A stretch of 34,988 nucleotides of DNA, from positions 1-34,988 of the forward strand of contig JAHKAP010000010.1 in the NCBI GenBank assembly GCA_018825985.1. The letters run 5' to 3'. The stretch is from Candidatus Omnitrophota bacterium. GTDB lineage: Bacteria; Omnitrophota; Gorgyraeia; Gygaellales; Profunditerraquicolaceae. Made by a program: the position numbers and the translations under genes. Shown in pieces: positions 3,110-34,988 of the stretch (within the stretch, counting starts at the first letter, position 1; every line of letters begins with the position of its first letter). The notes beneath the pieces are model-generated. The model did not search any database. It saw nothing but the letters and a program-made list of their open reading frames with translations, and had not been told where the DNA came from.

Positions 3110-3193
3110 AACACGGATTTTCGCAGATTTTTTTACGGATTCCCACGGATTATCCGTGATGATCCGTTATTTTATCCGAGTACATCCGTGTTC
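3110..3193. repeat. ACGGAT-type nested palindromic intergenic repeat
   Basis: Outer arms AACACGGAT/ATCCGTGTT, inner perfect CACGGATTATCCGTG, intermediate ACGGAT/ATCCGT arms. Confidence 0.75.
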
Positions 3194-9502: not shown

Positions 9503-10570
9503 CTATAGAAAACAATCTTCCAGCACTTTACCATCTATGGGATGAGTTTTTAAGTTCAAAATATGGGCTATAGTAGCAAAAATATCAGTGTGGTGGACCG
9601 CCCGGTCTATTTTTATATCTTTCTTTATTTTCGGCCCATAAACATACAGCCATGTTTGCCCAGTGGAATCGTATTCACTATGTTGCATGTAGTACCTATC
9701 GCGGCCGTGATCCGAAGTAACAAATAAATAAGTATTGTCTTTATAGAATGGGTCGCTTTGTATGTATTTCCATATATCAAAAATCCTTTCATCGGCATCT
9801 TTTATAGCTAAAACGTAGCGGCCGAATGTATCATAATGAGCGCTATCCGTACCATCCATAACAAAATGCATTATTTTAGGCTTATACCCATTTAAAATTT
9901 TTTTAACTATCCGATACCGCAATTCGTTATTTATATCCCAAAATGACCAGGAAAAATTTATCCGTCCGCTAAATTTTCTAGAATCTGAAGAATCATCCTG
10001 ATTGACTAATTTATTGAAAGACCTGATCGAATTCAATTCCTGCTTATTTAATAACTCTTCCGCTTCGGGAGACACGTGTGCAAATCTCACCCAGCCCGGG
10101 ATTGTGTTTACATCGTAAACCTGATCAATATAAGCTATTGTATCTTCGGTATTCCAATGGCCGACTGACCAGACCTTACTTGAGGGAAGGTTATATTGCT
10201 TAATAACATATTGAAAGACCGACGGAACTTTTAAATTAGAGTATGAAGACATAGTTTTGCCTGTATTAATCGCCAAGATAGATGGCTGATGAAAAGGCAG
10301 GTTCAAATTAACTAAATTAGTATATAATGTGCCATATTTTAACATATTATTCCATAGGTTAGAGATATATTGATGGCTTTCATCATTGATAGTCTCGCTA
10401 TTGCGCACCCCGCCTAATGTGCAAATAATAATATTAGGCATACCAGGCACATCTTCAGCCGTGTTTTCCCTTGCAAAATAATTTCGGCTCAGGATAAAAA
10501 AAAATGAGCAAATTACGAGAAAGGCCGAGATTACTTTATAATTAATATGTTTTGACCTGTGCATCTTCAT
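9503..10570 (-). CDS. Alkaline phosphatase/sulfatase-superfamily-like membrane-anchored or exported protein
   Basis: N-terminal TM/signal, PNIIICTLGGVR, MDGTDSAHYDTFGRY, FVTSDHGRDRYYMQHSEYDSTGQTWLYVYGP, HHTDIFATIAHIL; start set at the ATGA overlap (the ORF track extends to 10618). Confidence 0.75.
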   Translation of the reverse strand: MKMHRSKHINYKVISAFLVICSFFFILSRNYFARENTAEDVPGMPNIIICTLGGVRNSETINDESHQYISNLWNNMLKYGTLYTNLVNLNLPFHQPSILAINTGKTMSSYSNLKVPSVFQYVIKQYNLPSSKVWSVGHWNTEDTIAYIDQVYDVNTIPGWVRFAHVSPEAEELLNKQELNSIRSFNKLVNQDDSSDSRKFSGRINFSWSFWDINNELRYRIVKKILNGYKPKIMHFVMDGTDSAHYDTFGRYVLAIKDADERIFDIWKYIQSDPFYKDNTYLFVTSDHGRDRYYMQHSEYDSTGQTWLYVYGPKIKKDIKIDRAVHHTDIFATIAHILNLKTHPIDGKVLEDCFL

Positions 10571-13500
10571 TCTACCTCGGATATTATCTTTTGACCGCGG
10601 ACTCCATAAACATAACAATTTTTAGTCCGGATAACAACCGGTCTTATATAATCAATATATTTATAATCATCCGGCAAATCAATTATTCTTAATACAGTTC
10701 CTTTTTTTAAATCGAGGCTTACTAATTTCGGCTTTATGTCCGCAATATAATCTTTCATATATTCGGAATATGTACCCGGGGGGTCAATATAGCGCTTAGT
10801 AGAAATTATAAAATTTGCCTTACCTAAATACTCCTCAACATTAGATATATTATCGAAAATTCCCCTTACACCTTCGATATCAGCAAGCCACTCCTCTTTG
10901 CCTTTTGTTAAATCCAATGACGCGATATAATATTTTTCTTTGCTATGATACGGCAGGAATATTTTATCGCCAGATATAAAATAATATTTATCCTTATCCG
11001 TATTATACAATTCCCCTCCGGTCCGAAAATCTGTTTTTTCCAGGCCAAAACCCCAAAGCTGTCCGTCCTGTTTTCCAAAATCATATTCCCAATTTAAGGC
11101 TAGAAATCCATTTATTAGTTTATAGCTAGCTACGCTTTTCGACGGGATAATCCTCAATAAATTATTGTTGAAGGTTTCCAGGAAATACTTGCCTTTATCC
11201 CCCATAAAAAATTTACTGTTTGATTTTCTTTTTTCCAGATCTATAACATATGCTTCGGGAATAACATTAAAAACCATAAAACCATCAATAAAATAAACTC
11301 CGTATTCCGTATCATTGTTATTCAGAAAATCCAGCAAAATCTTGCCCCTATAACTAATATCCCTGCCATATACACTAATCTCCTTTAGGGGAGACACAAT
11401 ATATATATTATCTTTAAAAATATGCATTGATTTTATATAATCATATTCCAGAGATTGTGATTTTTTGCTGAATCCCGTAGAAATATCCAAAGAGTACATC
11501 TTATTATCAAAGACAATAATAATGTCGCTATCAATGAATCCAATATGCGAGCTTATATTAAAGCTGTTTAACGTTTTGATATTATTTATATCTTTCATAA
11601 CGCTCCACAGATATTTTCCGCTATGCGCGTCAATTCCTACAACATTTACACCGTCTTTGATTATAAGTGTATCCTCATAAAGATAAGCTTGATCGGCCCT
11701 TGATGTTCTCCTGAACCATTTTATCCCTCCAAATTCATCAACACAGATGATTTGGTCGATCCTTTTGATTAAATAAAAATCTAATTCTTCACTGCCTTTA
11801 ATAACCTCGACCGGAAACGGTCTTAACGATTGTCCGTAAATTTCGTACTGCCGTTTTAAACCAACGCCTGCTTTCTTCTTATCAACAGGCTTATCTTTAT
11901 CGTAATTTTTTAACAACCCTACGCCATAAAGTAAACCCCCCAGCCTTAAGTTAACGCCATCATAATTTACTATTTCATCGGCGTATTTTTTATTTAAATC
12001 TGCAATAAAATCATTCCAGAAATTATCCTTAAATTTGTCCTTGTTGTCTATAACAAACGGTATTAATTTATCCAAGGAAATATTTTTTTGTTTCAATAGG
12101 TTTAAAATACTGCTTTTTAATCTGGTTTCTTTATTATCCCCCGTATTCAAGCTTATAGCTTCTTTTAATGTTTTAAGTAATATGCCCTCCTGTTCTTCTG
12201 TGTATTTTAAATCCCCGGTATCTGCAGTTTGATAGGCCTTAAATTCATAATTAAATAAATTATTCTCATCCGCGATAAAAAAATTATTTCTAGTTGCATT
12301 TACAAGCCATCCACCAAGATGACCACCAATCTCTTTGCATTCAATAGAATCTTTAGCTGCCTTAAGTAAATAAATAAATTCGCCGCACTTAAATAACGTT
12401 ACTTCTTCGCTTAAATAGCTTACGCCGGACAAATATCCCCCTTTTATTTCAAACTCATAGATATTTTTACCAGTGGATAATTCAACTACTTTCAGGACAG
12501 CATTTTTTGTAATTTTATTTGTTTTTTCTAAAAAAACTGCTTTATTGCGGCTTACCCGCAAAATATAAAACTTCTCCGGATCAACTAATACCTGCTTTTT
12601 TAATTCCCCGGACTTTGAATCAATCATATAAAAAAAGTCTGATTCGCGCGGTTTATAGCATAAGGTCTGGCCGGCAACCTGGATAAATTCAGTATCGTAC
12701 TTAATCGGACATTTATTATTGGTATATGGTTTAAGGCAAGATTTATTCCAGTATTCAAATATATTGTACTGCTTGGGTGAATACTTCCTAATCCATATAA
12801 TTGAGCCATTATCCGAATCAATTGAAATTATCGCGCCATAATTGGTGCCAAGTATAACCTCATTGCCATTAACGCATGAAATTGAGCAGGCAGGAGATAA
12901 AAAAGATGATGTCCCGATATAAGTAGTCCATTTTAATTTGCCATCTAAAGCGCTAAATCCGCAAATGAATATTTCTGACCTGGCATTAATAAGCGTCAGA
13001 ATTAAAAATTTCTTATTTAGGATAGGTTTCGCGCCTAAAGTAAATTCACCGAGATTCTTCTGCCAGGCAATCTTCGGCTCAAGTATATTATCAAGCCTCA
13101 GGGCAATTAACTTATGATCTAGCTCGGTAAAAAGCATATCATCGGACAGCAACAATTCATAACCAGCTGAATTTTCATGCAAATGCCTAAATGTATTGTA
13201 GAATTCATAGCCGGATCCATCAAAATTGCCTAAAGACCAGATCTCATTTGAAGTTTTAAGGTCTAAGCAGAATATCCTATATTCATTACGCAATATAACT
13301 GTATTTTTAAAAGTTACCGGAAAAATTAAGCTCTCTTCGTACTTCTTTATCCATTGCCTCAAATCAGTAGATTTAAAAAAGAAATCTCTCAAATTGTCAT
13401 CTTTTAACGAATATTGCCACCTCCGGATAGCTTTATCGTTATTATCCAACACCTTCAAATCAAGACCGGATTTATCTTGAACAGGGATGGATAAGCTTTT

Positions 13501-14019
13501 TTTACCGGCATACTTCGGATTTACCCAAAGCGTATCGTTTTTTTTCAGTAAATCATTTTTATTATATTTCAAACTCAGGTTGTTTTCATATACGCGCTCG
13601 GCTTGCGGACTTAATTCCCGGATGTTAGAATCTGGTATAAAATCGCCATAGAAAGGCGCATTTAGGGATTGCGGAATATTATTAATAAAAATGTTTTCCA
13701 CCTCATTAATTATATTTTCATCCTCCATTTTAGTTATAAATCCATCGATTAATTCTTTTAATCTTTTTGCTGAATCTAAACTTTCTATTTTATTTCTTAT
13801 CTCTTTTAGTTCTTCATATGGATATGTAAGCAATTTTTCCCGGGCTTTTAAAAATGCAATCACGTTATCGCCGGAGAGATAACTCTCTAATTTGTTTAGA
13901 CCGTCCGGGCTTAGCATATCCATTGATATTATCGATTCACAATCTTGTGTAGATGCGAATGCCCATCCAAAGAAAATAACACAGATGAATATATTTATAA
14001 TAAATACCTTCTTCAGCAT
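10567..14019 (-). CDS. Large secreted PQQ-like beta-propeller repeat protein
   Basis: Signal peptide; repeated blade motifs such as LDLKTSNEIWSLG, FSALDGKLKWTTYIG, ISIDSDNGSIIWIRKY, VGIDAHSGKYLWSV, LDLTKGKEEWLADI. Confidence 0.8.
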   Translation of the reverse strand: MLKKVFIINIFICVIFFGWAFASTQDCESIISMDMLSPDGLNKLESYLSGDNVIAFLKAREKLLTYPYEELKEIRNKIESLDSAKRLKELIDGFITKMEDENIINEVENIFINNIPQSLNAPFYGDFIPDSNIRELSPQAERVYENNLSLKYNKNDLLKKNDTLWVNPKYAGKKSLSIPVQDKSGLDLKVLDNNDKAIRRWQYSLKDDNLRDFFFKSTDLRQWIKKYEESLIFPVTFKNTVILRNEYRIFCLDLKTSNEIWSLGNFDGSGYEFYNTFRHLHENSAGYELLLSDDMLFTELDHKLIALRLDNILEPKIAWQKNLGEFTLGAKPILNKKFLILTLINARSEIFICGFSALDGKLKWTTYIGTSSFLSPACSISCVNGNEVILGTNYGAIISIDSDNGSIIWIRKYSPKQYNIFEYWNKSCLKPYTNNKCPIKYDTEFIQVAGQTLCYKPRESDFFYMIDSKSGELKKQVLVDPEKFYILRVSRNKAVFLEKTNKITKNAVLKVVELSTGKNIYEFEIKGGYLSGVSYLSEEVTLFKCGEFIYLLKAAKDSIECKEIGGHLGGWLVNATRNNFFIADENNLFNYEFKAYQTADTGDLKYTEEQEGILLKTLKEAISLNTGDNKETRLKSSILNLLKQKNISLDKLIPFVIDNKDKFKDNFWNDFIADLNKKYADEIVNYDGVNLRLGGLLYGVGLLKNYDKDKPVDKKKAGVGLKRQYEIYGQSLRPFPVEVIKGSEELDFYLIKRIDQIICVDEFGGIKWFRRTSRADQAYLYEDTLIIKDGVNVVGIDAHSGKYLWSVMKDINNIKTLNSFNISSHIGFIDSDIIIVFDNKMYSLDISTGFSKKSQSLEYDYIKSMHIFKDNIYIVSPLKEISVYGRDISYRGKILLDFLNNNDTEYGVYFIDGFMVFNVIPEAYVIDLEKRKSNSKFFMGDKGKYFLETFNNNLLRIIPSKSVASYKLINGFLALNWEYDFGKQDGQLWGFGLEKTDFRTGGELYNTDKDKYYFISGDKIFLPYHSKEKYYIASLDLTKGKEEWLADIEGVRGIFDNISNVEEYLGKANFIISTKRYIDPPGTYSEYMKDYIADIKPKLVSLDLKKGTVLRIIDLPDDYKYIDYIRPVVIRTKNCYVYGVRGQKIISEVE

Positions 14020-20569: not shown

Positions 20570-20604
20570 GGGGACACCTTCCCGATTAGCTGCGATGGTG
20601 TCCC
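20570..20604. repeat. GGGGACA-type short hairpin (possible terminator or REP-like unit) at the 3' end of malQ
   Basis: GGGACACC...GGTGTCCC, 8-bp perfect arms, overlapping the malQ stop region. Confidence 0.5.
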
Positions 20605-22433
20605 TAGGAGCGGACGGAAAAAGCTATCATCTCTTTGATTTTAGAAGATACTGGATGCCCCGCTAATTCCTCCAGCGAAAGAGGAATGACTAAAGACCAG
20701 TTTTTCTCGCCAACGGTCCCGGGAGTATTTATCCGATACTGGTAAGTATCTCCGGAAAATATATTATCAAGATAGAGCAGGTCAATGATCAACTGAATAG
20801 AGAATATGGCCCTGGATTCCAAAACAATTCTTAAAACAGCGCTCAGGACCTCAGGATCATACTTCTCCCTCATTGGCCCGGATAGATTAAGCTGTTTCCA
20901 GAGTTTTTCTTTTTCCAAATAAGTATTCTTATAAAAATCAATGAAATCCGCTACTTCTTCTCTTTTTTTGCCTAAAATATTAACCAGGGCATCAACCGAA
21001 TTAATATCCTCTTTCCAACGCAGCCTTCCGTGTTCTGACCTGGCGGAATCGAACAATCTTTCTTGGGCATGTTTTACATCTATGCCCCGCTCTACGCATC
21101 GGCGGTTGAATAAATTCTCATCCATTGTCCCGGCTTCATTCTCCCACCAGGCCGGCCAATTAGTTGTATCGTGGGTAGATAAAACCGCGACTGAAAGCAT
21201 CCGGTATTCATCTGACGGTAAAAAATCATGCTTGGTTTTCCAATCTTTTACCCAGCGCTGGACATCATTTCCAGGAATTCCCAGTTCTTTCAGGGTATCA
21301 GTGCAAACTTTAGGAATAACCCCCAGATCCTCAGCGCAAAGGAACATGTCGGTATTCCCCAGCATCGTCAGTAATATATCCCGGCCGTGTTTTTCCCACT
21401 TCTTTTCGTCACCCGGATCAAAAAAACCATTCAATCCCTGGTTTTCAATCGGCTCATTATAAGGTATGCTCCAGATCCGGAATAATCCCACCACATGGTC
21501 TATCCTTAAGATATCGTAGAAATTCTGGGAATATTTAAGTTTCTCCTTGAGATAAAGATAGTTGTCAGCAGCAATCCTCTCCCAATTATAAGTAGGGGTT
21601 CCCCAGCGTTGTCCTTTCGCGCAATACATATCCGGCGGGGCGCCGGCCGCAAAATCCAACTTAAAAAATTCAGGATGGCTCCAGACATCCGCGCTATCCC
21701 GTGAAACCAGAATCGGCAGATCGCCTTTAATCAGGATGTTCCTGGCAACAGCGTATTCCTTAACCTGCTTAAACTGCCTGTAGAGCTGCCATTGCATCCA
21801 TTTTTCGAATAAAACCTCGCTGGCATGCTGCTTTAAAAATTCATCCAATTCCGGTTTATTGCGTTTTTTATATTTATCTTCCCAGTCATACCAAGCTGCC
21901 CCATTATAATAATATTTTAACGCTTTAAATAAAGCAAAATCGTCAAGCCAATATTTATTATCTTTTTGAAACAGTAAAAACTCATCATTTTTAATATAAG
22001 CCCCTTGAGAAAATATCCCCCATAATAAGTCAACCTTGGCTTTTTTTAAACTATAATCCACGCGCTGCCTGGGCATAGGGAACATTTTTCTTATTTTATC
22101 TATATCCTTTAGAATATTTAACCCCAACTCAGAGGATAATAAATCCAGGGAGATATAGAGCGGCTCCAGCCCAAAAGAAGTCACGGAATCATATGGACAA
22201 AAAGTTGAACCGACATCATTCATCGGTAAAAGTTGAATAATAGAATTACCGGTATAAACGCACCAGTCAATAAGCAATTTCAAGTCATTTAAATCCCCTA
22301 TCCCTGTGCTATCTTTAGAAAATACCGAAAATAAAGGCACCGTAACACCAGACCTTTTTTGCTTACCGATCCTCTCCCATTTTTTCTTCAAAACAGTATT
22401 AGAAAATTCCTTATTCGTACCGGCTTTAGTCAT
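20604..22433 (-). CDS. malQ: 4-alpha-glucanotransferase (GH77)
   Basis: IIQLLPMNDVGSTFCPYDSVTSFGLEPLYISL, ILIKGDLPILVSRDSADVW, LRIDHVVGLFRIWSIP, FLCAEDLGVIP, STHDTTNWPAWW. Confidence 0.92.
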   Translation of the reverse strand: MTKAGTNKEFSNTVLKKKWERIGKQKRSGVTVPLFSVFSKDSTGIGDLNDLKLLIDWCVYTGNSIIQLLPMNDVGSTFCPYDSVTSFGLEPLYISLDLLSSELGLNILKDIDKIRKMFPMPRQRVDYSLKKAKVDLLWGIFSQGAYIKNDEFLLFQKDNKYWLDDFALFKALKYYYNGAAWYDWEDKYKKRNKPELDEFLKQHASEVLFEKWMQWQLYRQFKQVKEYAVARNILIKGDLPILVSRDSADVWSHPEFFKLDFAAGAPPDMYCAKGQRWGTPTYNWERIAADNYLYLKEKLKYSQNFYDILRIDHVVGLFRIWSIPYNEPIENQGLNGFFDPGDEKKWEKHGRDILLTMLGNTDMFLCAEDLGVIPKVCTDTLKELGIPGNDVQRWVKDWKTKHDFLPSDEYRMLSVAVLSTHDTTNWPAWWENEAGTMDENLFNRRCVERGIDVKHAQERLFDSARSEHGRLRWKEDINSVDALVNILGKKREEVADFIDFYKNTYLEKEKLWKQLNLSGPMREKYDPEVLSAVLRIVLESRAIFSIQLIIDLLYLDNIFSGDTYQYRINTPGTVGEKNWSLVIPLSLEELAGHPVSSKIKEMIAFSVRS

Positions 22434-22441
22434 ATGCGCTC

Positions 22442-23506
22442 TCAAGTTTTAATGAAAAATGTATTTACATATCTCTGTATTTTTTCAAAATTATTCTCCC
22501 GGAAAAAACAGCTTAGAAATGAACAATCAGACTTGCATTTTCTCATCTCTTTCCTTTTTAATCGGGTTTCTTCCGAACGCCAAATATCATCGATAGCCGT
22601 AGAAGAAATATTCCCAATCGGATCCGACAACCAACATATCTTGACTGCGCCATCCGGTAAAATAGTCACTGCTTTATCATACGCCCGGCACTCCAAAATA
22701 GGACTGCTCAGACCCAAATAATATGATTTCAGCGCCAGTAAATACCTGGTTGAGCTTCGAATATATGGGCTTTTCTTTTTCCTCTCAATGATTCGGTCGA
22801 ATTCGCGCGATATTCTATCTTTGTCTTGCGGAAACAACCCGTTATCGGCTAAAGCTGAAATATTCTTTCCGTCATATCCTTTGCAGATCAATCCCTGAAA
22901 TGATATCCCCAGACCGTTTCTTTCAGAGAATTCGATTAAATCAAGAAGCTCAGCCAAGTTTTGACCGGTAATAACCGTATTTATCTGCGTCCTTATCCGG
23001 CCCTTAAGTTCAGCGATAGCCCCCATTGTATTCGCATAGGCTCCGGGGCCTCTTAGCGAATCGTGAGTTTTCTCTTGAAAACCATCTAATGAAAGAGCGA
23101 TAATATCTAAACCGCTTCTCTCTAGCTTATCAGCTACTTCGCTATTTATCAATGAACCATTTGTATTCAACATAGTTACCAGGCCCAAATTGAACGAAAA
23201 ATAAATTATTTCAAATAGATCCTGCCTTAACAAAGGCTCCCCCCCGGTTATTACCAGAGGAAAACATCCCAGCCATTTTTTTAGGTCCATAATAACTGCT
23301 TTCCAATCTTCAGTGACAAGCTCCTCGCCTTCGTGCCGCTGAAGGCAATGGCCACACCTCAGGTTACATTTATGATTAATTCTAATATCTACTCTCTGCG
23401 GCTTAGAATTTATACCAAAAGTACTAAAACTTACCAACTGCCTGAAAGCATCGTTAGCGCCGGCTAAAAAAATATTTTTTTTCTTTATGTTTAATTTCAT
23501 AATCAC
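22442..23506 (-). CDS. Radical SAM protein with SPASM/twitch-like C-terminal cysteines
   Basis: CNLRCGHC (CX3CX2C), ITGGEPLLRQDLF; C-terminal CRAYDKAVTILPDGAVKICW...CKSDCSFLSC. Confidence 0.88.
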   Translation of the reverse strand: MIMKLNIKKKNIFLAGANDAFRQLVSFSTFGINSKPQRVDIRINHKCNLRCGHCLQRHEGEELVTEDWKAVIMDLKKWLGCFPLVITGGEPLLRQDLFEIIYFSFNLGLVTMLNTNGSLINSEVADKLERSGLDIIALSLDGFQEKTHDSLRGPGAYANTMGAIAELKGRIRTQINTVITGQNLAELLDLIEFSERNGLGISFQGLICKGYDGKNISALADNGLFPQDKDRISREFDRIIERKKKSPYIRSSTRYLLALKSYYLGLSSPILECRAYDKAVTILPDGAVKICWLSDPIGNISSTAIDDIWRSEETRLKRKEMRKCKSDCSFLSCFFRENNFEKIQRYVNTFFIKT

Positions 23507-23586
23507 ATACCAATCTATAAGCTATGCCTCGGATAAATTATCAAGCAACCTGAAATCCGAAAAATTATAGAGCTTTTGCTATATAT

Positions 23587-25152
23587 TTAATCAATTTTCC
23601 GGCCATAAAGATCTATAAATATTCCGTCAAATTCTTTCCTATCCAAAACTAAATAATCTCTTTGAATCCATTCTCTTATTGCAGCTTCATGAAATCCTAA
23701 ATTATTACCTCTTGACCATGTCATAGAAATCAACCATAACCTTTTGAACTTTTTATTTTTGAAACGTTCCGAGGATCTTTCATTATCTAAAAATATAGGT
23801 ACGCATCTGTTTTGTGTATATCCCCTTAAATACTTACCCTTAAAATTTTTCCAATAAGGTCCGATTTTATTTAGAATTACAAAAGAAAAAATATCTATAT
23901 TTTTGCTAATTTTTTTTTGAATGTAGTATGATATTGTACTGCCAACCGGGCCGGAATAACCGATGGCATCACCCTCGATAAATCTTTTACCGATGTAATC
24001 TACCGCTGGCTCAACCGGCTTCTTCACATATACACCTATACTATGGTATCGGAATGCGGGCATATTATAAGTAAAATAGTTACGTAAACATAATACAACC
24101 GATGACAATATAATGACGTAAACAATAATTTGCAAACTTTTTAACCTGATTTTTTCTATGCCAGCAGCGATTATTATGTAATAAAATGGCGAGTATAAAA
24201 TTAGGTTTCTATCAAGATAAATAGGGATTAACTGTGAAATTAGAAATGTGAAAATAATGGGTGAGAATATGCAAAATAAGAGAAATGCCAGCACTTTTTT
24301 TCTATCTTGCCACCAAAAAAAGACTCCCAAAATAAACAACAAAAAGAAAACTACAGAAGTAATAAAATATACGCCCGGGGTTGCGTTATATCCGATATTA
24401 AAATTATCCAACGTAATCCCGATGGCGCCTAAATTAGGTTTTGACACCCAAAAACTACTGCTTAATTTACTGATATATCTTATTAAACTGGGAGCTAATA
24501 ATAGAAAACCCGATATAATAATTAATATATATACCAAGCCCAACTTAAAAATATATTTATATCTTCTTAAAAAAAGAGCAATAGACGTGAGGATAATTGC
24601 GTAAAAACAGAAATAATTTATGTATATCGATATAAGTGATGATAAAATTAAACCGATCCATAAATAAACCTTGCTCTCTTTTAAAACTCTGATAAAGAAA
24701 TATATTATTAATAGTGTGATAAAAATTGACAGGCTATAACCTCTCGCTTCCTGTGAATACCAAACGTGAATTGGTGAAATTGATAAAAGAAATGAACCTA
24801 TTAAGCCGACTTTGGTATTAAACAATAACTTCCCAATTTTATACATAATTGGCACTGACACCACCCCAAACAACATAGACAAAAATCTTAAGCTAAATTC
24901 GCTCATTCCAAACCAGAAAACCCAAAATTTTAATAAGATATTATATAAATAAAATTGTTCGCCGAAAATCTTCCGGGTAATGTCTCCATAGGTCAATGTC
25001 GTCATAAAATAAGCATAAACTTCATCATACCAAAGATCAGCGTCTCCTAATTTATAAATTCTTATAGCTATTGCGAGAGTCAGAATTAACCATAGCATTA
25101 ATGCGTTCTTTTGCTCTTCACGCAAATGGGTTAGCGAATTTAATTTCTGCAT
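23587..25152 (-). CDS. Membrane glycosyltransferase, GT39/ArnT-like
   Basis: Many TM helices; DADLWYDEVYAYF, SEFSLRFLSMLFGV, SPIHVWYSQEARGYSLSIF. Confidence 0.82.
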   Translation of the reverse strand: MQKLNSLTHLREEQKNALMLWLILTLAIAIRIYKLGDADLWYDEVYAYFMTTLTYGDITRKIFGEQFYLYNILLKFWVFWFGMSEFSLRFLSMLFGVVSVPIMYKIGKLLFNTKVGLIGSFLLSISPIHVWYSQEARGYSLSIFITLLIIYFFIRVLKESKVYLWIGLILSSLISIYINYFCFYAIILTSIALFLRRYKYIFKLGLVYILIIISGFLLLAPSLIRYISKLSSSFWVSKPNLGAIGITLDNFNIGYNATPGVYFITSVVFFLLFILGVFFWWQDRKKVLAFLLFCIFSPIIFTFLISQLIPIYLDRNLILYSPFYYIIIAAGIEKIRLKSLQIIVYVIILSSVVLCLRNYFTYNMPAFRYHSIGVYVKKPVEPAVDYIGKRFIEGDAIGYSGPVGSTISYYIQKKISKNIDIFSFVILNKIGPYWKNFKGKYLRGYTQNRCVPIFLDNERSSERFKNKKFKRLWLISMTWSRGNNLGFHEAAIREWIQRDYLVLDRKEFDGIFIDLYGRKID

Positions 25153-25288
25153 AGATAACTTTTTCGATCAATCACCAACATGCCTTTTGAATTAAAAAAC
25201 ACCCGACAATAAAACTTTAGAAGTTACTGCGCAACATACAGCCTCAGAGAGACTTTCCATATATTTCTCTAGATATAACTTTCCAAAA

Positions 25289-25738
25289 TCAGCCTTCTTT
25301 AATAAAAAAGAATCGCATTCTTCGAACTTCATTGATATAACTCAATGTGTTTAGATTCTGCGCTTTAAAATTAAACTTTACCTGGATAGAGGCTTTATCG
25401 TTTGATATATTTGGCTCCTCAATATTTAGATCACTTATAGATATATCAATCATCCTTTCCAATTGCGATTCAATATCTGCCCTGAATTCATCATATGTCG
25501 TAACACTGTTATCACTTTTTATTGTATAATTTTTTGAGACTTGGTCCATCATAGAATTTATATCCCGCCCTACAAAACATTGTAGATATGTTTCGACCGC
25601 TTTTTTTATTGCTACAGAATCTTTTTCCTGCGTTACGTTAGATGATGAAGGTTCCCCCTCGCCGGCGCATAAAGGTACTGTCCCATATAGTAAATGAATT
25701 GCTAAAATTAACCCTAAAATCGTAAACAATCTTTTCAT
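25289..25738 (-). CDS. Secreted NTF2-like/SnoaL-type protein, C-terminus interrupted by TGA
   Basis: Signal peptide; IKKAVETYLQCFVGRDINSMMDQVSKNYTI; ends MRFFFIKEG*, with FWKVISREIYGKSL* continuing in frame after the stop. Confidence 0.6.
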   Translation of the reverse strand: MKRLFTILGLILAIHLLYGTVPLCAGEGEPSSSNVTQEKDSVAIKKAVETYLQCFVGRDINSMMDQVSKNYTIKSDNSVTTYDEFRADIESQLERMIDISISDLNIEEPNISNDKASIQVKFNFKAQNLNTLSYINEVRRMRFFFIKEG

Positions 25739-25870
25739 ATCAGCCTCCTATAGGTAGCCCCAAAATATAATTAATTATCGTTTAGCCAGCCGCCCGAAAA
25801 AAATCTGTTAAAATTCTAAAAGGCCAAACGCTTTTTTTAAACATTCAACTTACTAATTACTTATTTTTGG

Positions 25871-27415
25871 TTAAAAATCAATGAGCTTAAATTTTCCTCC
25901 ATTGGTTATATTTAATTTATGGACATATTTTATCACAAGTTTTAACGCTGGATCAATTCTTTCTTTAAATTTTTCGGCTATTCGTTCATCCAATACGTTA
26001 TCCTGTAAATTCCTTCTAACAATATAAGCCTCAATCGTTTCGCTATCTTTTTGTTTAAATTGACATTCTTTTATACCCTGAATATCGCGCAAGATAACAG
26101 ATAAGGTCGAGGGATAAATTATTTTATCTTTAAAAAAAAGTTTTTCTGCAGCCCTGCCTTCTAATATAAGAAAATCACTGCCCCGGTTACAACGACATCG
26201 GCTATTATGCCTAACACCTATATCTCCACTTTCATAGCGAATAAACGGCATAGCGTAATTAAACAAATCCGTCCCTAGTATTTTGCCTCTTTCACCGCAA
26301 AATAGCTCATTGCCCCTTTCATCGGCAACTTCCATAATACAGCTCTCTTTTTCTTCATGATAATTACCATATTCGCAACCAAAGGCATTTACGGTTCCTT
26401 CTCTATTCGAATAAGCTGAGTAAATAAGGCATCCAAAGGTATCTTTAATTATCTTTCTCTGATGCGGCCATAAAGTTTCATATTTACTTATAAATACCCT
26501 GAATTTTAATCTATGTATTTTATTTTCGTTGGCTAAACAGGCAAATTCCAATAATAATGATGGATTCCCGGTAATACTTACCGGCTTGAATTTACTTAAA
26601 ATACTCAACTGCTCCAACCTGCATCTTCCGTTAAGCGGCATCGTCGAAACATACATAATATTACTGTCCGGAATAAAACAAGCGATACTTTTATGCGGCT
26701 TATAGTTATTCTTGGACCACCATCCATTTTTTGCATCTTCATCATAATTATAGAATAATTTTCCATCCATACTGGCATTATGGTCAGTGCCGCTAAAAGG
26801 CACTGACCATAATTGAGCGGTTCTAGCTATCGGCGAAATCCCCATCCATTCTAACCTGCGCTTAGAAATAATTGTCCATATTAGAATACGCTTTAGATCG
26901 CTGTATAATATAAGCGGTTTACCGGTAGTGCCGCTGGTGTAATATTTCTGCGCCCTAAAAGAATCTTTATATTTCAAAAAATCATTACTTATAAGCTGCT
27001 CCCTATAATTTATAACATCTTCCCTGGTTAGGGGAGGAATATTGCGAAGATCGCTTAACGAATTAAAATCTCTCCCAGGATCAAACCCGGATTTACGGAA
27101 TAAATTATTGTAATAAGGAACCTTGGCATAGGCGTAATTTAGAAGATTATACAATCTCTTAAAACGATATCTTTTAATTTCTAAATCGTCCCAATATTGC
27201 GATCTTTTAAAAACATTATGCTGATAGCACTCCCATGCAACCCATTTCAAAGGCCTTTTAAAAATTATAGACATCAAATAATGATACTCCCGGTTTTTTA
27301 TTTTATCTTCACTGATAGATAAAAACCATAATCTCCATGATTCCTTAACACTTAATTTAAACCCCCGCATATTTTCTAATTCCTCGAAATATTTAAATCG
27401 CATCATGAATCCCAC
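25871..27415 (-). CDS. CapK/PaaK-like adenylate-forming enzyme (paralog A)
   Basis: YYTSGTTGKPLILYSD P-loop-like motif, YSNREGT, FIRYESGDIG, CRCNRG, C-terminal GGKFKLI. Confidence 0.82.
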   Translation of the reverse strand: MGFMMRFKYFEELENMRGFKLSVKESWRLWFLSISEDKIKNREYHYLMSIIFKRPLKWVAWECYQHNVFKRSQYWDDLEIKRYRFKRLYNLLNYAYAKVPYYNNLFRKSGFDPGRDFNSLSDLRNIPPLTREDVINYREQLISNDFLKYKDSFRAQKYYTSGTTGKPLILYSDLKRILIWTIISKRRLEWMGISPIARTAQLWSVPFSGTDHNASMDGKLFYNYDEDAKNGWWSKNNYKPHKSIACFIPDSNIMYVSTMPLNGRCRLEQLSILSKFKPVSITGNPSLLLEFACLANENKIHRLKFRVFISKYETLWPHQRKIIKDTFGCLIYSAYSNREGTVNAFGCEYGNYHEEKESCIMEVADERGNELFCGERGKILGTDLFNYAMPFIRYESGDIGVRHNSRCRCNRGSDFLILEGRAAEKLFFKDKIIYPSTLSVILRDIQGIKECQFKQKDSETIEAYIVRRNLQDNVLDERIAEKFKERIDPALKLVIKYVHKLNITNGGKFKLIDF

Positions 27416-27423
27416 GCTTATGT

Positions 27424-28899
27424 TTAATTATACGCGCACTTGGAGCCCATATCAGAGAATGACTTGCGTATAGCCAAAACAAGTTTTTTGTCTTTAATAA
27501 TTGTAACGAGATAATAGACCGAAGAAATAAACAATAAAATCAACAGTGTTTTAGCGTCCCGTATCCCTATAATAAATTTAACCGAAACTATTAAAACAAA
27601 AACTGGCGAATAACGCACGATGCCCTGAGTTAAATAAATAAAAGCTGTCCGGGAATAAAGGCCCGCGATCGATAATAGCCATAATGATGAAAATAAATAG
27701 GCCAATGCGCTTATTATCCCGAATATGGTGATAGCGAATAACGCGTCTCTTGTCAGGTATCCCGCAACCAATAATGATAAACTAGCCAACAATAAAACAA
27801 AATTTATGGCTAATCCTCTGAAATATTTTTCCTTAACTCCTAATAATCTGCTGAGTGGCCAGAACGCAAATGAAAAAAATGCCTCTAATGATAAAACCTG
27901 TGCATAAACTCCAGCCTCAGCAAAACGGTTTCCCAGCAAGATCGCAAAAATATCCTTGCCGATAAACAACAATAAAAAAAATGGCAATATCGTAAATCCG
28001 GCCATCCTCTTGTATGCCGCTTCTACCAGATTTAGCAACCCATCCTCCCGGTATTCCGAAGCTTGTTGGAAGAAAACCTGCGAAAATCCCCTGCCCACAA
28101 AATTGAACGGAGCATTCAGCACCATCCTGCAAATGACATAGTATCCGACTATGGCTGGATTAAAAAGGGAGCTCAGGATCCAAAGTGGTAATTTAAGATT
28201 GATCTTCTGTATCAATAAAGACCACGAAGTAAATACCAAAAGTTTATTATACCTGGATATCCCAAGGAATATCCTTTTCCACGAAATATATTTTTTCAGA
28301 ACATCCATATCATTCCTTAGTAGATGATTTAACTGTATAAAAATAGATGCCATCTTGCCTATGATATCCCCGGCTATGAACGCCCATATACTGATATAGC
28401 CTAAATATGCGCATAACAATTTTATTATTCCGGAGATAAAGCAGGACATCACCATACAAACAGCAAGATGCCCAAAACGATTATTCCTGGAATTCCACAT
28501 TAAAAATACCAGGAGTATACCTTCTATTGCCGCTATAAAAGGGATAGACCAGACATACTGCCTTAAATTCGAGATATTAAATACGCGCATTATATTATCA
28601 CCGAAAAATAAAACCAGTAATATGCTTAAAACTGTGGAAATCAAAACAAAACACAGGCTAGCCGCTGAAAGATTAGCGGCTTTTTCATCTGTTTCAGAGA
28701 TCATAATAGAAATATCATAAAAAAAACAAGATAGGCTTCCGACAAAACTTCCGATGGATATAATTAGAGCGGCGATCCCGATTATTTCAACATTATAAAT
28801 CCTGATGATAAAAGGCATCATCATAATATTTATAATAGCTACCGCTAAATTACTACTAATAAGCTTTATAGCTCCGGATGTTAATTTTAAGTAGTTCAT
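27424..28899 (-). CDS. Oligosaccharide flippase (Wzx/MOP-like)
   Basis: About 12 predicted TM segments, polysaccharide-transporter-like pattern (VGYYVICRMVLNAPFNFVGRGFSQVFFQQASEYREDG). Confidence 0.82.
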   Translation of the reverse strand: MNYLKLTSGAIKLISSNLAVAIINIMMMPFIIRIYNVEIIGIAALIISIGSFVGSLSCFFYDISIMISETDEKAANLSAASLCFVLISTVLSILLVLFFGDNIMRVFNISNLRQYVWSIPFIAAIEGILLVFLMWNSRNNRFGHLAVCMVMSCFISGIIKLLCAYLGYISIWAFIAGDIIGKMASIFIQLNHLLRNDMDVLKKYISWKRIFLGISRYNKLLVFTSWSLLIQKINLKLPLWILSSLFNPAIVGYYVICRMVLNAPFNFVGRGFSQVFFQQASEYREDGLLNLVEAAYKRMAGFTILPFFLLLFIGKDIFAILLGNRFAEAGVYAQVLSLEAFFSFAFWPLSRLLGVKEKYFRGLAINFVLLLASLSLLVAGYLTRDALFAITIFGIISALAYLFSSLWLLSIAGLYSRTAFIYLTQGIVRYSPVFVLIVSVKFIIGIRDAKTLLILLFISSVYYLVTIIKDKKLVLAIRKSFSDMGSKCAYN

Positions 28900-28947
28900 G
28901 TTAAATACGGCTTGAATACAACGTTATCAATCGTACACCACTTAATT

Positions 28948-29135
28948 TTATGCGTCAAAAACATCTTTGCATAGAACGGCTAAGTCCGAGATACTCCTGA
29001 TTAGATTACAAAGGTCAACGGCATATCCTCCGCGGACAAAGGCTCCCTTGAGCACCGCCGTACCATACTGCGGAAAATAGATAAAGGAACCTGATTCTGA
29101 TAATTAGGAGATACAATAAGTTTTATCTCATCCAT
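28948..29135 (-). pseudogene. 5' remnant of a B12-binding-type radical SAM gene, frameshifted
   Basis: MDEIKLIVSPNYQNQVPLSI then, in another frame, YFPQYGTAVLKGAFVRGGYAVDLCNLIRSI; matches MSGKIKLILAPNYW...LPYGVAILKGSLIRGGYAADLCNLI of the 29145-30680 protein; near-identical DNA block GGATATGCCG(C/T)TGACCTTTGTAATCTAAT. Confidence 0.8.
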
Positions 29136-29144
29136 TTATAACCT

Positions 29145-30680
29145 TCATGCGTTAAAAATACATTTTAATATTCTTAAAATTTCGGCTTGAATACCTTGAT
29201 TCTTTCTATTTATCCCCAAAAAAGTCATTATGCGGACGAAAAATAAATACCGGGAAGGCGAACCAAAAGGCTTATTAATATATTTAGACGCTGTCCGGAA
29301 CAATAAACTATAATAACCATGGTTATAGCTGCCGCGCCTGGCTGTTATTGGGCTTAAAAGTTCGTATTCTATATTTCCCGCCCTATCATTATCCTGCCGG
29401 CCGCTCATCTCTTTATCGCAAATCAACGCGCCCTTATTTTTTCGCAAGATCCATAAAGCCAGTCCGCATATATATTTTTTACATCTGATAATAAACTCAT
29501 TAGTTGATTTTATATCATTATCTGATTCACCATCTATTCCCAGCATAAAATGCGCGTGCGACTTTATGCCTATATCATAGCAATTCTTTAAAGTCTCCTG
29601 TGCCTCCAAAACGGTATGCGATTTACCCAGGATTTTCAATATCCGGTCGGAACCGCTTTCAATGCCAAAACGCAGATACCTGTTCCCGGACTTATACATT
29701 TTACGCAACAAATCCGGCTTTAGTCGTTTCGGGACAGCTAAAGCCATCCAGTAAATATTTATATTCTCGGATATCAGCCTATCGCACAATCTTTCCAAAT
29801 ACCCCACATCATCATTGATTGTACTGTCAGTAATAAAAAAATACCCCGTATTATGCTTTTCTTTTAAAAAACGTATTTCATTTATTACTTTATCCAATGA
29901 TTTATATTCTTTCTTATCGGATACCCTATGTAAACAAAATATACATTTACCTAAACACCCGCTGGCGCACCTATAGGGTATTATAAATTGTTTTTTTTCT
30001 TTATTTATATAATAAGGCTCAAAATCAAAACCATCGTAATCCGGGAGGCCTTCATCTTCCAATCTGTAATCCTTTATTTCATTAATAAGTAACTCATTGT
30101 TATAGACGGTCTCCAGATTAGGGACTTCCTTTATACCGATATTTCCTTTCTCGTAATCTAAAAGCTTTAATATAGGCTCCTCGCATCTCCCCCTTAATAC
30201 ATAATCTATATATTTATATTTTGTCACAATCGGCTGGCTATAAAGATTAATCAACGGTCCGCCAAGAACTATCTTTGCCTTATATCTTTCTTTTAATCTT
30301 TTAGCAAGAACAAGGGCGGGTAAAAAACATGACTCTGAGCTGACTGAGATACCGAATATTCTGGAATTGTCCGGATAAATACTATCTAAAAGATGGTCTA
30401 CCAGCTTTTCTACGGCCCTGTCGTTATCCCCCAGATAATACCTGATAAGCCTATATTTATATGACTTACCTCGCAAGAGCCGGCTGAAACGGTTTCTTGT
30501 CTCAAATAACCGCTGCATATACATAATTAGATTACAAAGGTCAGCGGCATATCCCCCGCGGATAAGAGATCCTTTAAGTATCGCCACGCCATACGGCAAT
30601 ATACCATACGGCAAACCCCGCATCGCATCCCCATGAAGCCAATAATTTGGCGCTAAAATTAGTTTTATCTTACCAGACAT
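29145..30680 (-). CDS. B12-binding-domain-type radical SAM protein (1)
   Basis: N-terminal LPYGVAILKGSLIRGGYAADLCNL and IFGISVSSESCFLPALVLAKRLKERYKAKIVLGGP; CLGKCIFC (CX3CX2C); LRFGIESGSDRIL, HFMLGIDGESDNDI. Confidence 0.88.
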   Translation of the reverse strand: MSGKIKLILAPNYWLHGDAMRGLPYGILPYGVAILKGSLIRGGYAADLCNLIMYMQRLFETRNRFSRLLRGKSYKYRLIRYYLGDNDRAVEKLVDHLLDSIYPDNSRIFGISVSSESCFLPALVLAKRLKERYKAKIVLGGPLINLYSQPIVTKYKYIDYVLRGRCEEPILKLLDYEKGNIGIKEVPNLETVYNNELLINEIKDYRLEDEGLPDYDGFDFEPYYINKEKKQFIIPYRCASGCLGKCIFCLHRVSDKKEYKSLDKVINEIRFLKEKHNTGYFFITDSTINDDVGYLERLCDRLISENINIYWMALAVPKRLKPDLLRKMYKSGNRYLRFGIESGSDRILKILGKSHTVLEAQETLKNCYDIGIKSHAHFMLGIDGESDNDIKSTNEFIIRCKKYICGLALWILRKNKGALICDKEMSGRQDNDRAGNIEYELLSPITARRGSYNHGYYSLLFRTASKYINKPFGSPSRYLFFVRIMTFLGINRKNQGIQAEILRILKCIFNA

Positions 30681-30732
30681 AATTTAAAACTTCGGATTCC
30701 ACACGCACTCCAGATCAGCCTTTTTTGTCATC

Positions 30733-32223
30733 TCAACGATTTAAGCATAAAGATGAAATTTTGCTTTTTAGCCCATCTACCAGAAGACTAATTCTACTCT
30801 TTGGCTCAAGAACCTGGCTTAGCCTGCGATATGACCTGTCTATCTCCTTGACTTTATCTTTCCATTTCAAGCCATTGATCTCGTCAAATTCATAACACCA
30901 TTTTACCGGGTTCATAAAATTTGGCCTCAAGATCCTGATGCCATACTTGGCCGGATTTAAGAAAATATCAGTGCCATACTCGACCCTAAAATGGGCTATC
31001 TCGTAACTGGTTATGTAAAATTTATTCCTTTTTATAAATTCCAAGGTGGCCTTAATATCATTTTCGCTTTCATGCGGATAGCCCGCAATAAAAAAGAGTC
31101 TTGTCTCGATCCCCGCGTTGTGTGTCCAGCGTATGACTGATTCCATCTCTTCGGCTAAAAAAGGCTTATTCATGTTGCGTAATAATTTATTGCTCGCGGT
31201 CTCGGCCCCGAAATATAACGAATGGCAGCCGCTCTCTTTCATTTTATCTATTAAATCCCGGTCTAAACGGTATGGCGTGGCGTAGGAATGCCAATTGATG
31301 TCTATTTTACTTCCAATAATAGCATCACACAAATCATGCATATAATCATTGGAAATATTTATTTCTGAATTCACGAAATTGATCCAGCGCGAACCATATG
31401 TTTCAGTCAGCAATTTGATATCATCCACTACTTTAACTATTGATTTTATCTCCAGGGGATGATTTTTGCAAAAACCGCAGAAAGAACAATTAAAAGCGCA
31501 GCCGCGGGATGTTTCATAGGGTATGCGAAAACCAAAATGCGGGCCGATACTGGGATGCCTCGGAGCATTATAAATACCCGGATCAAGGCCCGAATAATCC
31601 GCGTTAGGTATCCGATCGATCGGATAACGTTTTCGGGTATTTGAAAACACCCGCCCATTCTTTCTATACATCAAATTAGGGACGGATTCGATGGAACGCC
31701 TGCCTTGCATACTTTCCAATAAGCCGTCGATTGGCGTCAAGGCGTCTGCGATCAGCATATAATCACAGGCTATTGATTGCTTAAAAAAAATGTCCCCGAA
31801 CAGGATCAGGTACGGCCCCCCCATTATTATCGGAACAGAAGTTGATTCTTTTATTATCCGGCTCATCAGGCTTGCGAAGAGAAAGGAGGAATATGACTGG
31901 ATAGAAAAACCGACCAGGTCATAACCGCTCCATTCCTGCCTCAGAACCCACTTCTTAAATGCATGGTACAGATAACCGCCTTTTTTCTTAATATTAAGGC
32001 AATATTCGATCTGACTATTATTCTTTAGAGCGCCTATGTCAACGAATCCCTTCTTTTTGGCGTACATCCGATCGCTTAAACCATTATTAAAAACGCTCAG
32101 GTCTACGAAATCCACAATATGCCCGCCCTTTCTCAAGTGAGCGGCTAAAACAGCCGCCCCGTAAGGAAGCTTAAACGCGGCTATCCCGCATACAGTGGGC
32201 GGAATTATCAATTTTATCTTCAT
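30733..32223 (-). CDS. B12-binding-domain-type radical SAM protein (2)
   Basis: KLPYGAAVLAAHLRKGGHIVDFVDLS, LVGFSIQSYSS, IIMGGPYLILFGD; CAFNCSFC; LYFGAETASNKLL, FFIAGYPHESENDI. Confidence 0.9.
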   Translation of the reverse strand: MKIKLIIPPTVCGIAAFKLPYGAAVLAAHLRKGGHIVDFVDLSVFNNGLSDRMYAKKKGFVDIGALKNNSQIEYCLNIKKKGGYLYHAFKKWVLRQEWSGYDLVGFSIQSYSSFLFASLMSRIIKESTSVPIIMGGPYLILFGDIFFKQSIACDYMLIADALTPIDGLLESMQGRRSIESVPNLMYRKNGRVFSNTRKRYPIDRIPNADYSGLDPGIYNAPRHPSIGPHFGFRIPYETSRGCAFNCSFCGFCKNHPLEIKSIVKVVDDIKLLTETYGSRWINFVNSEINISNDYMHDLCDAIIGSKIDINWHSYATPYRLDRDLIDKMKESGCHSLYFGAETASNKLLRNMNKPFLAEEMESVIRWTHNAGIETRLFFIAGYPHESENDIKATLEFIKRNKFYITSYEIAHFRVEYGTDIFLNPAKYGIRILRPNFMNPVKWCYEFDEINGLKWKDKVKEIDRSYRRLSQVLEPKSRISLLVDGLKSKISSLCLNR

Positions 32224-33614
32224 TTAGCGCCGGTCTCAAACTGGTTATTTAAATCAGAAATAATGAATTTAAATTTACCGGAGGGGTCCCTGGGTATCGA
32301 GTCCACAAATCTGACTTCTATTTCTATATCGTCTCCGATCAACTCTCTTAAAAAAGCCTTAAACTGCACAATAGTATCATCGGGAGCGCAACTATCCAGA
32401 ATAACATTGATTAACAATTGTGACCCGGATACCTGGACAAACTGGCACTCTTTTATCTTTTTCAATCTTGTCAACAGCTGCGCGAGTGTCGCGCTGTAAA
32501 TATATTTATTATTATAAAAAAGCTTTTCATTGCTTCTGCCTCTTAAAAGATCTATGGTTTTTAACCCTCGTTTGCATGGACAAATTCTCCCGGAAATCGA
32601 GGCAATATCCCCAATATCATAGCGTATCAACGGCATTATATAATTATGCAAGCCAGTGGCGACCAGACTGCCGCATTCGCCATCGGCTAATTGTTTACCT
32701 TTCTTAACTATCTCTACTATTCCATTCTCCATATCTATGTGTAAATTACCATATTCATAGCACTCGGTAGCAGAAAATAATCTCTCTTGCGTACCATAAT
32801 AATTAAATACCCTACATCCAAACTGCTTCTCAATGAGATCCTTTTGATAAGGGAATAAATGTTCAAAGGCACTCAAAAAAATCCTAAACCTTATTGAACC
32901 GATATTTCTTTCAGATGCACAACAAGCAAGCTGATAAAGTAATGAAGGATTGCCGTATACATAATCCGCTTTAAACATCTCCATCTCTTTTAAATATACG
33001 GGCAAAACTTTTCGATCTTGAGGCAAAGTAGATAGAGATAGAACCATATTATTTTTATGATACAACAGAATCTTGTTTCTATTTTCGTCTTCGAGAAACG
33101 GCCAGCACCATAAATTGACCCTTTTATTCAGCCGATTAATACCAAACCAATTTTTCCTGCGGGAATTAAACGCCCTGAAAATATAATAATAAAAACTTTT
33201 ATCAAAATATAGATCCAAAGGCTTACCGGTAGTGCCACTAGTGGTTTTCTTAACGTGTCTTTCTTTATGATATTTTTTTGAAATCATTTTATCAAAGTTA
33301 TTTATCAGACTATCTTTGGTTAAAACCGGTATCCTCTCCAAGTCTTTCAGCGAACTGAAATCTGCGATTCTTAACTTAATCCTGTTGAAAAGCTTGGAAT
33401 AATAAGGAACATTCTGGCCAGCGTACTTCAATAAATCTTTTAATCTCCTTAATTGATATAGCTCTAATTTTTCTATCGGATACCATTGCGAACGCAGGAG
33501 AAAATTGTAATATCTATGCTGAGCTATACAGCCCCACGGGTCTTTCTTGAAATTAATCCCCGGAGCAACAATAATCCTGATCATATTTCTCAATCTACCG
33601 ATATATCCCTGCAT
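32220..33614 (-). CDS. CapK/PaaK-like adenylate-forming enzyme (paralog B)
   Basis: KTTSGTTGKPLDLYFD, YYGTQER, LIRYDIGDIASI, CPCKRG, SGKFKFI; ATGA overlap with the downstream radical SAM gene. Confidence 0.85.
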   Translation of the reverse strand: MQGYIGRLRNMIRIIVAPGINFKKDPWGCIAQHRYYNFLLRSQWYPIEKLELYQLRRLKDLLKYAGQNVPYYSKLFNRIKLRIADFSSLKDLERIPVLTKDSLINNFDKMISKKYHKERHVKKTTSGTTGKPLDLYFDKSFYYYIFRAFNSRRKNWFGINRLNKRVNLWCWPFLEDENRNKILLYHKNNMVLSLSTLPQDRKVLPVYLKEMEMFKADYVYGNPSLLYQLACCASERNIGSIRFRIFLSAFEHLFPYQKDLIEKQFGCRVFNYYGTQERLFSATECYEYGNLHIDMENGIVEIVKKGKQLADGECGSLVATGLHNYIMPLIRYDIGDIASISGRICPCKRGLKTIDLLRGRSNEKLFYNNKYIYSATLAQLLTRLKKIKECQFVQVSGSQLLINVILDSCAPDDTIVQFKAFLRELIGDDIEIEVRFVDSIPRDPSGKFKFIISDLNNQFETGAK

Positions 33615-33638
33615 CAGTTTTGCGCACCCGCGCTTTAT

Positions 33639-34961
33639 TTAACTTAAAAAATATCCCGGCAAATGGCTAATATTTGATATGATCGTTTTATATTTGCCTG
33701 ATCTGCTTTTAATAATCTCTGTTACAAATTCATAATGTAGTTTTATCTTATTTCCTAGAAGGGCATAACATTTACGCAATAACAAATCTGTATCTCCTTC
33801 CTTAAATGCTTTATTCCTTACTATCTTAATCGTAATATTGTTATCACCGCCTTGTTCGATCTGATACTGTGCTATTCCCGAAAAACCATCTATCAAGTCA
33901 GTTAAAGGATAGTAAACGTTAGCTGCTCCTTCGGACAACTTCAACAATTCTACCTCTCGGCCTATAATCCTTTTTAACAATTTAGGATTTCTACCGCAAG
34001 GGCATTTATTAAGGGTTAAAATTCCCCGATCGCCTATTTTATATCTTATTAATGGCATAGTATATAACGAAAGGTTTGTTATCACTATGCTGCCCTCTCC
34101 TTCGTTTAAAATATTTCCCTGATCATCTAATGTCTCAAGTATCAAATTAGAGCTGTTTATATGTAAACCGTTATGAGCCCGGCATTCCCAGGCCATCATG
34201 CCGGATTCATTCGAAGCATAATTATCAAACACCTCAGCCTTAAAAATCCGGGTGATCAATTCCCTTTCTTTTTTCCCTAAGACTTCAGCGGTAGTAATTA
34301 TCTTACCCACCTTGATCCCGTTTAAGCCGATCTTCTCTATTTTTAAAGCCACCTCGATAATATTAGAAACGAAACCCCTGATCACGGTAGGCCGAAAAGA
34401 ATAGATTCTATTCAAAATCTCATCAGCATCACAATATACCGATATATAACTCTCCCTCATTGCACCTAAATAACTGCATAATTTCTTTTCTTGGAAATGT
34501 CTCTCGCCGGTAATATATAATATTTTATCCATAATTGAACAGCCATTTTCAAAGTTTACCATCTGATTGAATAGCCCTCTGAGGCGGTGCTCCCTGGGAT
34601 TTACGAAAATGTTTAAAGGCACCCCGGTAGAACCGCTAGTAACAAGATTCTTATATTTACTTATATTCTCTCCTTTGGCCGTAATATCCCACACATCATA
34701 TTGAGATAAATCCGTCCTGCTAGTTATTGGTATTTTTATTAAATCCGATATAACCCTAATTTGCTGAGGTTTTAGACAAACCGCGTCAAAGGTCTTCTTG
34801 TAATAAGCTACGTTATTATAAGCATGGATTATCAGCGACCTTAGTTTTCTTTCCTGGAGTTTCTTTATCGCTTGATCATCAAGATATAGCTCATTATGTA
34901 ACCTTGCTAAATCATACAAGTAAAATGGGGCAGTCAAATAATTTAATATCCGAGATAGCAT
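33639..34961 (-). CDS. CapK/PaaK-like adenylate-forming enzyme (paralog C)
   Basis: LVTSGSTGVPLNIFVNPRE, YASNESG, LIRYKIGDRGIL, CPCGRNPKLL, SGKYKTI. Confidence 0.84.
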   Translation of the reverse strand: MLSRILNYLTAPFYLYDLARLHNELYLDDQAIKKLQERKLRSLIIHAYNNVAYYKKTFDAVCLKPQQIRVISDLIKIPITSRTDLSQYDVWDITAKGENISKYKNLVTSGSTGVPLNIFVNPREHRLRGLFNQMVNFENGCSIMDKILYITGERHFQEKKLCSYLGAMRESYISVYCDADEILNRIYSFRPTVIRGFVSNIIEVALKIEKIGLNGIKVGKIITTAEVLGKKERELITRIFKAEVFDNYASNESGMMAWECRAHNGLHINSSNLILETLDDQGNILNEGEGSIVITNLSLYTMPLIRYKIGDRGILTLNKCPCGRNPKLLKRIIGREVELLKLSEGAANVYYPLTDLIDGFSGIAQYQIEQGGDNNITIKIVRNKAFKEGDTDLLLRKCYALLGNKIKLHYEFVTEIIKSRSGKYKTIISNISHLPGYFLS

Positions 34962-34988
34962 TATTAGGCTAATTAATAGCAGTATCGA

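Follow-up and report, generated by a model that had tools for sequence, protein, structure and literature searches.

We analysed a window of 34,988 nucleotides that comprises the entire contig C31 of a Candidatus Omnitrophota genome (G000; 1.77 Mb in 84 contigs), at whose right end lies a cluster of nine co-directional genes on the minus strand. In the direction of transcription, it starts at the contig end with g9 (33639-34961), a PaaK/CapK-type adenylate-forming ligase, and continues with a second ligase of this type, g8 (32220-33614), two B12-binding-type radical S-adenosylmethionine (SAM) enzymes, g7 (30733-32223; Radical_SAM 2e-18) and g6 (29145-30680; Radical_SAM 4e-20), a remnant of a third such gene (~28990-29140), a Wzx-like flippase, g5 (27424-28899), a third ligase, g4 (25871-27415), a small protein that appears to carry a signal sequence, g3 (25289-25738), a GT39/ArnT-like membrane glycosyltransferase, g2 (23587-25152), and a radical SAM/SPASM protein, g1 (22442-23506; Radical_SAM 5e-21, SPASM 3e-7), which forms the left end. 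An earlier sequence-only reading had described these nine open reading frames; all were found where it had placed them, and the domain classes it had assigned were borne out by Pfam/NCBIfam-type profile matches. It had also suspected that the cluster runs past the right edge, and position 34988 is indeed the contig end, at which the cluster is cut. What it had called a dead third B12-type gene is a remnant of such a gene, although only of the N-terminal ~50 codons (blastn against g6: 81% DNA identity over 72 bp and 83% over 29 bp).

All three ligases keep the P-loop TSG[ST]TGxP, the A7 motif RYxxGD and the A10 lysine of GK[FY]K, which places them in the PaaK/CapK adenylate-forming superfamily, and 25 alignment columns are invariant across eight ligases. 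They match PaaK/FlxY/DVU_1553-like profiles far under every equivalog cut-off (best 147 bits, against NCBIfam cut-offs of 300-650 for phenylacetate-CoA ligase, FlxY and DVU_1553); g9, for example, matches FlxY at 1e-42 and DVU1553 at 2e-41, both below the cut-offs. The best PDB match of g8 is the phenylacetate-CoA ligase 4r1l (1e-22), and its nearest homologue among 386 genomes of the phylum is a ligase on contig C26 of genome G340, which belongs to another Omnitrophota family (39% identity, E 2e-100). In a tree of sampled Omnitrophota, g4 is a diverged paralogue and the sister of g8 (support 99/91), both group with the G340 ligase (100/99), g9 is sister to a G300 ligase (L087; 93/89) flanked by B12-type radical SAM genes on both sides, and the ligases of G312 and G099 pair with each other (100/100). 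The tree partners of the three window ligases, like the G312 and G099 ligases, all adjoin or lie near B12-type radical SAM genes, and the association of ligase and radical SAM enzyme is therefore older than this genome. The window ligases resemble the CapK/PaaK ligases (COG1541) of polysaccharide clusters in sequence and in their P-loop, lysine and CxC motifs, and the ligases of relatives lie among glycosyltransferase, flippase and Wzy_C genes; they differ in that three occur per locus, in their B12-type and SPASM partners, and in that no equivalog cut-off is reached.

The CxxxCxxC motif is intact in g1, g6 (CLGKCIFC) and g7 (CAFNCSFC). The latter two proteins are 31% identical, and in their alignment (A1) g6 lacks ~22 residues that g7 has towards the C-terminus. 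The AlphaFold model of g7 (predicted local distance difference test, pLDDT, 81; predicted template modelling score 0.83) shows a cobalamin-type radical SAM architecture, with TsrM, OxsB, MgmA and AprD4 as the best Foldseek matches. AprD4 works without cobalamin and matches equally well by template modelling score, so that g7 may or may not use cobalamin. The hallmarks of cobalamin-dependent radical SAM enzymes (TsrM, OxsB, MgmA; HpnJ and PhpK families) are found here as CxxxCxxC in g6 and g7 and as an N-terminal Rossmann-type domain in the predicted fold and structural matches of g7; identity with solved structures, by contrast, is 13-16%. The B12-binding Pfam profile scores 20.8 in g7 against a cut-off of 32.1 and does not match g6. 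Neither protein reaches the cut-off of TIGR04072, a family linked to ladderane-type lipids (94-102 of 360 bits), or of HpnJ (62-82 of 578 bits). Across its 1.77 Mb, the genome has ~69 radical SAM matches that exceed the Pfam cut-off, many in tandem arrays on contigs C32, C45, C26, C80, C68 and C5 (L203, L204, L205, L027/L103, L207 and L206, respectively), with ~10 radical SAM genes in 13 kb on C32, and similar arrays occur in related genomes (L031, L032).

Among the membrane and secreted proteins, g2 exceeds the PMT_2 cut-off (40.1 versus 26.1 bits; 6e-10), and its residues W41, D43, E44, P298 and R315 are invariant in 25 homologues, so that the acidic pair D43-E44 in the first loop (25/25) joins the domain in assigning it to the GT39/ArnT type; unlike known ArnT/GT39 transferases, g2-type genes have B12-type radical SAM and U32 genes as recurrent partners. 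The flippase g5 scores 46.9 bits with Polysacc_synt_3 (3e-12; cut-off 23), as expected of a Wzx-type protein. No family lies over the cut-off for g3, for which weak PF24125/SnoaL hints allow a possible NTF2/SnoaL-like fold. Its sole homologue found (L100:17912-18412; 34%, 90 bits) continues where g3 ends at an in-frame TGA within a conserved stretch (KEG-stop-FWKVIS versus KEGGAWKIVS), which may reflect a nonsense mutation, erosion or an assembly error.

At its end, contig C5 of this genome carries nine co-directional genes for two U32 proteins (U32a, U32b), a GT4 glycosyltransferase, a SPASM protein, a methyltransferase, a second SPASM protein, an ATP-grasp ligase and two B12-type radical SAM enzymes (B12a, B12b), the last two above the B12-binding cut-off and at 98.6-116 of 577.6 bits below that of HpnJ. 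Homologues of both C31 and C5 genes form a one-strand array on G340:C26, transcribed in the order B12-type radical SAM, Dph6-like, GT39, SPASM1, B12-type radical SAM, methyltransferase, SPASM2, ATP-grasp, B12a, B12b, B12-type radical SAM, U32a, U32b, radical SAM, ligase, a protein that we take from its sequence to be FKBP-like, GT2 and flippase. Its products are 39% (ligase, to g8), 33% (GT39, to g2) and 39% (SPASM1, to g1, whose best match it is at 211 bits) identical to those of the window, and 48% (SPASM1), 52% (SPASM2), 49% (methyltransferase), 51% (ATP-grasp), 65% (B12a), 58% (B12b), 45% (U32a) and 41% (U32b) identical to those of C5, with which the order ATP-grasp, B12a, B12b is shared. 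Mixed sets of C31- and C5-type genes occur in two families beyond that of G340, namely ligase, GT39, methyltransferase, B12b-type and GT4 genes on G329:C19 and GT39, GT4, methyltransferase, SPASM2 and B12b-type genes on G311:C22. Because genes of both contigs sit together on G340:C26, we infer that C5 and C31 belong to one locus, of which C5 is, by synteny, most likely the continuation. The locus would then probably be larger than the sequence-only reading had drawn it, with a UbiU/UbiV-like pair, an ATP-grasp ligase, a methyltransferase, a GT4, two SPASM and two B12-type radical SAM enzymes added. That reading had seen no cytosolic GT1/GT2, and the window cluster indeed holds no cytosolic glycosyltransferase; the GT4 of C5 would change this for the locus as a whole.

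The four cysteines of the C5 protein U32a are spaced CX6CX16CX38C, which is exactly the spacing of the Fe-S motif demonstrated in UbiU (PMC6747719), and U32 genes are adjacent on C5 and in G340, as would befit an O2-independent hydroxylase of the UbiU-UbiV type (PMC6747719). The pair differs from UbiU-UbiV in that U32a stays below the UbiU cut-off (80 of 440 bits), in that the spacing of the partner U32b is CX14-16CX3C and not CX12CX3C, and in its position outside the window. The four-cysteine motif of U32a of G340 deviates from that of UbiU as well (X13 and X37).

We give an even chance to the reading that the nine genes are part of a larger, assembly-cut Omnitrophota locus for the oxygen-independent synthesis of a lipid-linked glycan or glycolipid at the cell surface. 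Gene content, active-site motifs, the shared strand and linkage in relatives are observed; the chemical steps, all of which we infer, could run as follows. The ligases g8, g4 and g9 would activate carboxylic acids as adenylates or thioesters, and the activated group or a lipid carrier might then be methylated, hydroxylated, oxidised or amidated by g7, g6, B12a and B12b, the SPASM enzymes, the UbiU/UbiV-like pair, the methyltransferase and the ATP-grasp ligase. The GT4 of C5 would build on a polyprenyl carrier, g5 would carry the product across the inner membrane, and g2 would attach a sugar at the outer face, possibly helped by g3 in the periplasm. Activation of unusual acids, radical tailoring and transfer to a surface glycan or lipid had already been proposed in the sequence-only reading; above-chance linkage and the presence of most enzyme classes plus a flippase on G340:C26 partly support this proposal, in which the three ligases and the radical SAM enzymes would act on one molecule. 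The surface role fits the position of homologous ligases of the phylum among polysaccharide genes.

Linkage in relatives was compared with random placement. In order-wide scans, 4 of 48 g2-related GT39 matches lay within 3 kb of a strong B12-type radical SAM match (0.21 expected) and 8/48 within 12 kb (0.84 expected). A B12-type radical SAM gene was near most of the best GT39 matches, often with U32 genes, and the GT39 neighbours (n=110) included 36 radical SAM, 21 B12-binding and 15 U32 proteins. Sets of GT39 flanked by B12-type radical SAM and U32 genes recur in the family of the source organism (L104-L122, L028, L078, L100), in L108 and L122 in the order U32, GT39, radical SAM, B12-type radical SAM, U32, and may possibly be a module in their own right. 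Radical SAM proteins with an HMPTM zinc ribbon (PF23545) lie beside ligase, B12-type radical SAM and GT39 genes at L028:12584-13900 and L078:10894-13309. Of 32 loci with g8-like ligases, 8 hold a B12-type radical SAM gene, against 2.4 expected (P=0.0015). Neighbours of g8-like ligases (n=106) comprised 20 radical SAM, 19 GT1/GT4, 6 flippase and 5 Wzy_C proteins. A search seeded with g7 across 85,462 species found a ligase and GT39 alongside only in the close relative Omnitrophota bacterium STD1_220 (G094, L123; 35-36% identity); the Elusimicrobia genome with the next-best match (29%) yielded homologues of neither. The linkage of ligase, GT39 and B12-type radical SAM genes thus exceeds random expectation, and the lack of co-occurrence in relatives that would have spoken against the sequence-only reading did not arise. 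Relatives carry a mosaic drawn from these enzyme classes, and the nine-gene set as such is not conserved.

Several observations weigh against the proposed surface pathway. The P values of the linkage comparisons are optimistic because random placement ignores the clustering of radical SAM genes within genomes, and B12-type genes are common in these genomes (~4 per Mb). The exact set of nine genes was not met elsewhere in the genomes scanned, and compared with G340 the genes follow only partly the same order. The ends of C5 and of the window do not overlap, so that their adjacency is a matter of synteny only; no overlap with the window was found among 15 contig ends, and its last 139 bases have no second copy. 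Polymerase and nucleotide-sugar genes are absent from the cluster, both g6 and g3 show apparent signs of partial erosion, and the AlphaFold model of g2 (two sequences) is of low confidence (pLDDT 40).

The end product could instead be an unusual membrane lipid or a quinone-like lipid with no repeating glycan. The B12-type radical SAM enzymes, U32 proteins and methyltransferase would then tailor a ring or an alkyl chain, and the lipid head group would be glycosylated by GT39. The C5 B12-type enzymes are nearest to hopanoid HpnJ, all B12-type enzymes also match the ladderane-lipid family TIGR04072, and two related clusters (L028, L078) carry HMPTM zinc-ribbon proteins, a group that presumably includes the tetraether synthase Tes. 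U32a, moreover, is UbiU-like, and the substrate that UbiU/UbiV hydroxylate is a prenylated lipid (PMC6747719). However, the HpnJ and TIGR04072 matches are below cut-off and no lipid-enzyme family cut-off is reached at all, and the Wzx-type flippase, the GT4 of C5, the GT2 of G340 and the glycan-cluster homologues of the ligases favour glycan assembly, which leads us to regard a pure lipid product as unlikely.

Slightly less credit still goes to an ordinary, fast-shuffling O-antigen or exopolysaccharide cluster in which radical SAM and ligase genes are incidental neighbours that share no pathway. Most g8-like ligases of the phylum belong to GT4/Wzx/Wzy clusters that have no B12-type gene and are mostly ordinary glycan clusters, and the unrepeated gene set and eroded genes would fit such turnover. 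The locus shares with Wzx/Wzy clusters the flippase, the GT39-like transferase and the GT4 of C5. In contrast to such clusters, polymerase and nucleotide-sugar genes are missing and more than half of the genes encode radical enzymes or ligases; no Wzy-type polymerase was found in the window cluster or among the nine C5 genes, which may together be incomplete. Mere neighbourhood is at odds with co-localisation above chance, with the order ATP-grasp, B12a, B12b being kept in G340 at 51-65% identity, and with the grouping of radical SAM-associated ligases in a few branches of the tree. A product resembling ribosomally synthesised and post-translationally modified peptides, with a precursor modified by SPASM and B12-type enzymes and decorated by the ligases and the ATP-grasp enzyme, is improbable: such radical SAM enzymes are typical maturases of these peptides, g6 and g7 match ApyD and rSAM_ocin_1 below cut-off and C5 encodes an ATP-grasp enzyme, but no precursor-like gene was recognised among open reading frames of at least 80 amino acids (shorter ones were not searched exhaustively), no protease or leader-binding domain was found, and GT39 and a flippase are atypical partners.

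To the left, g1 overlaps by 4 bp with malQ (20604-22445), which we judge by its sequence to be a housekeeping gene. Scans of the window found no tRNA genes, a number of terminators close to the shuffled expectation and a moderate excess of promoter-like sites over that expectation (72 against 55.5, sd 7.4), and comparison with PHROGs gave nothing informative. Beside RNase E/G (1640-3082), a 99-amino-acid frame (3192-3491) is presumably a lone DUF2344-type domain, which we would have expected to be fused to a radical SAM domain. In a low-GC stretch (34%) at 9503-14019, a gene for a 1150-amino-acid protein carrying BamB-like PQQ repeats precedes one whose product, as we read its sequence, resembles the alkaline-phosphatase superfamily.

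Every enzyme class of the locus is already known; their combination in one cluster was not found described in the literature covered, which consists of open-licence papers. Publications on CapK ligases and polysaccharides, on clusters of U32 and radical SAM genes and on cobalamin radical SAM enzymes in polysaccharide clusters contained no counterpart, nor did a characterised O-antigen or exopolysaccharide cluster with this gene set, which the sequence-only reading had named as a possible refutation, turn up there. Omnitrophota are widespread and without isolates (PMC10066038), and neither of two Omnitrophota papers checked for radical SAM enzymes names them in its main text. That related gene combinations recur across the phylum points to a possible, so far undescribed way of making a cell-surface molecule independently of oxygen. 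A bolder extension, which we put forward tentatively and with low confidence, is that a phylum-wide oxygen-independent line leads to a new class of surface glycolipids in which PaaK-activated acids and a polyprenyl-type lipid are modified by several cobalamin-type radical enzymes and by the UbiU/UbiV-like hydroxylase before transfer by GT39. If the proposed pathway is true, Omnitrophota would have a new surface chemistry made by radical enzymes, and functions would be at hand for the CapK-type ligases of glycan clusters and for the abundant B12-type radical SAM and U32 families.

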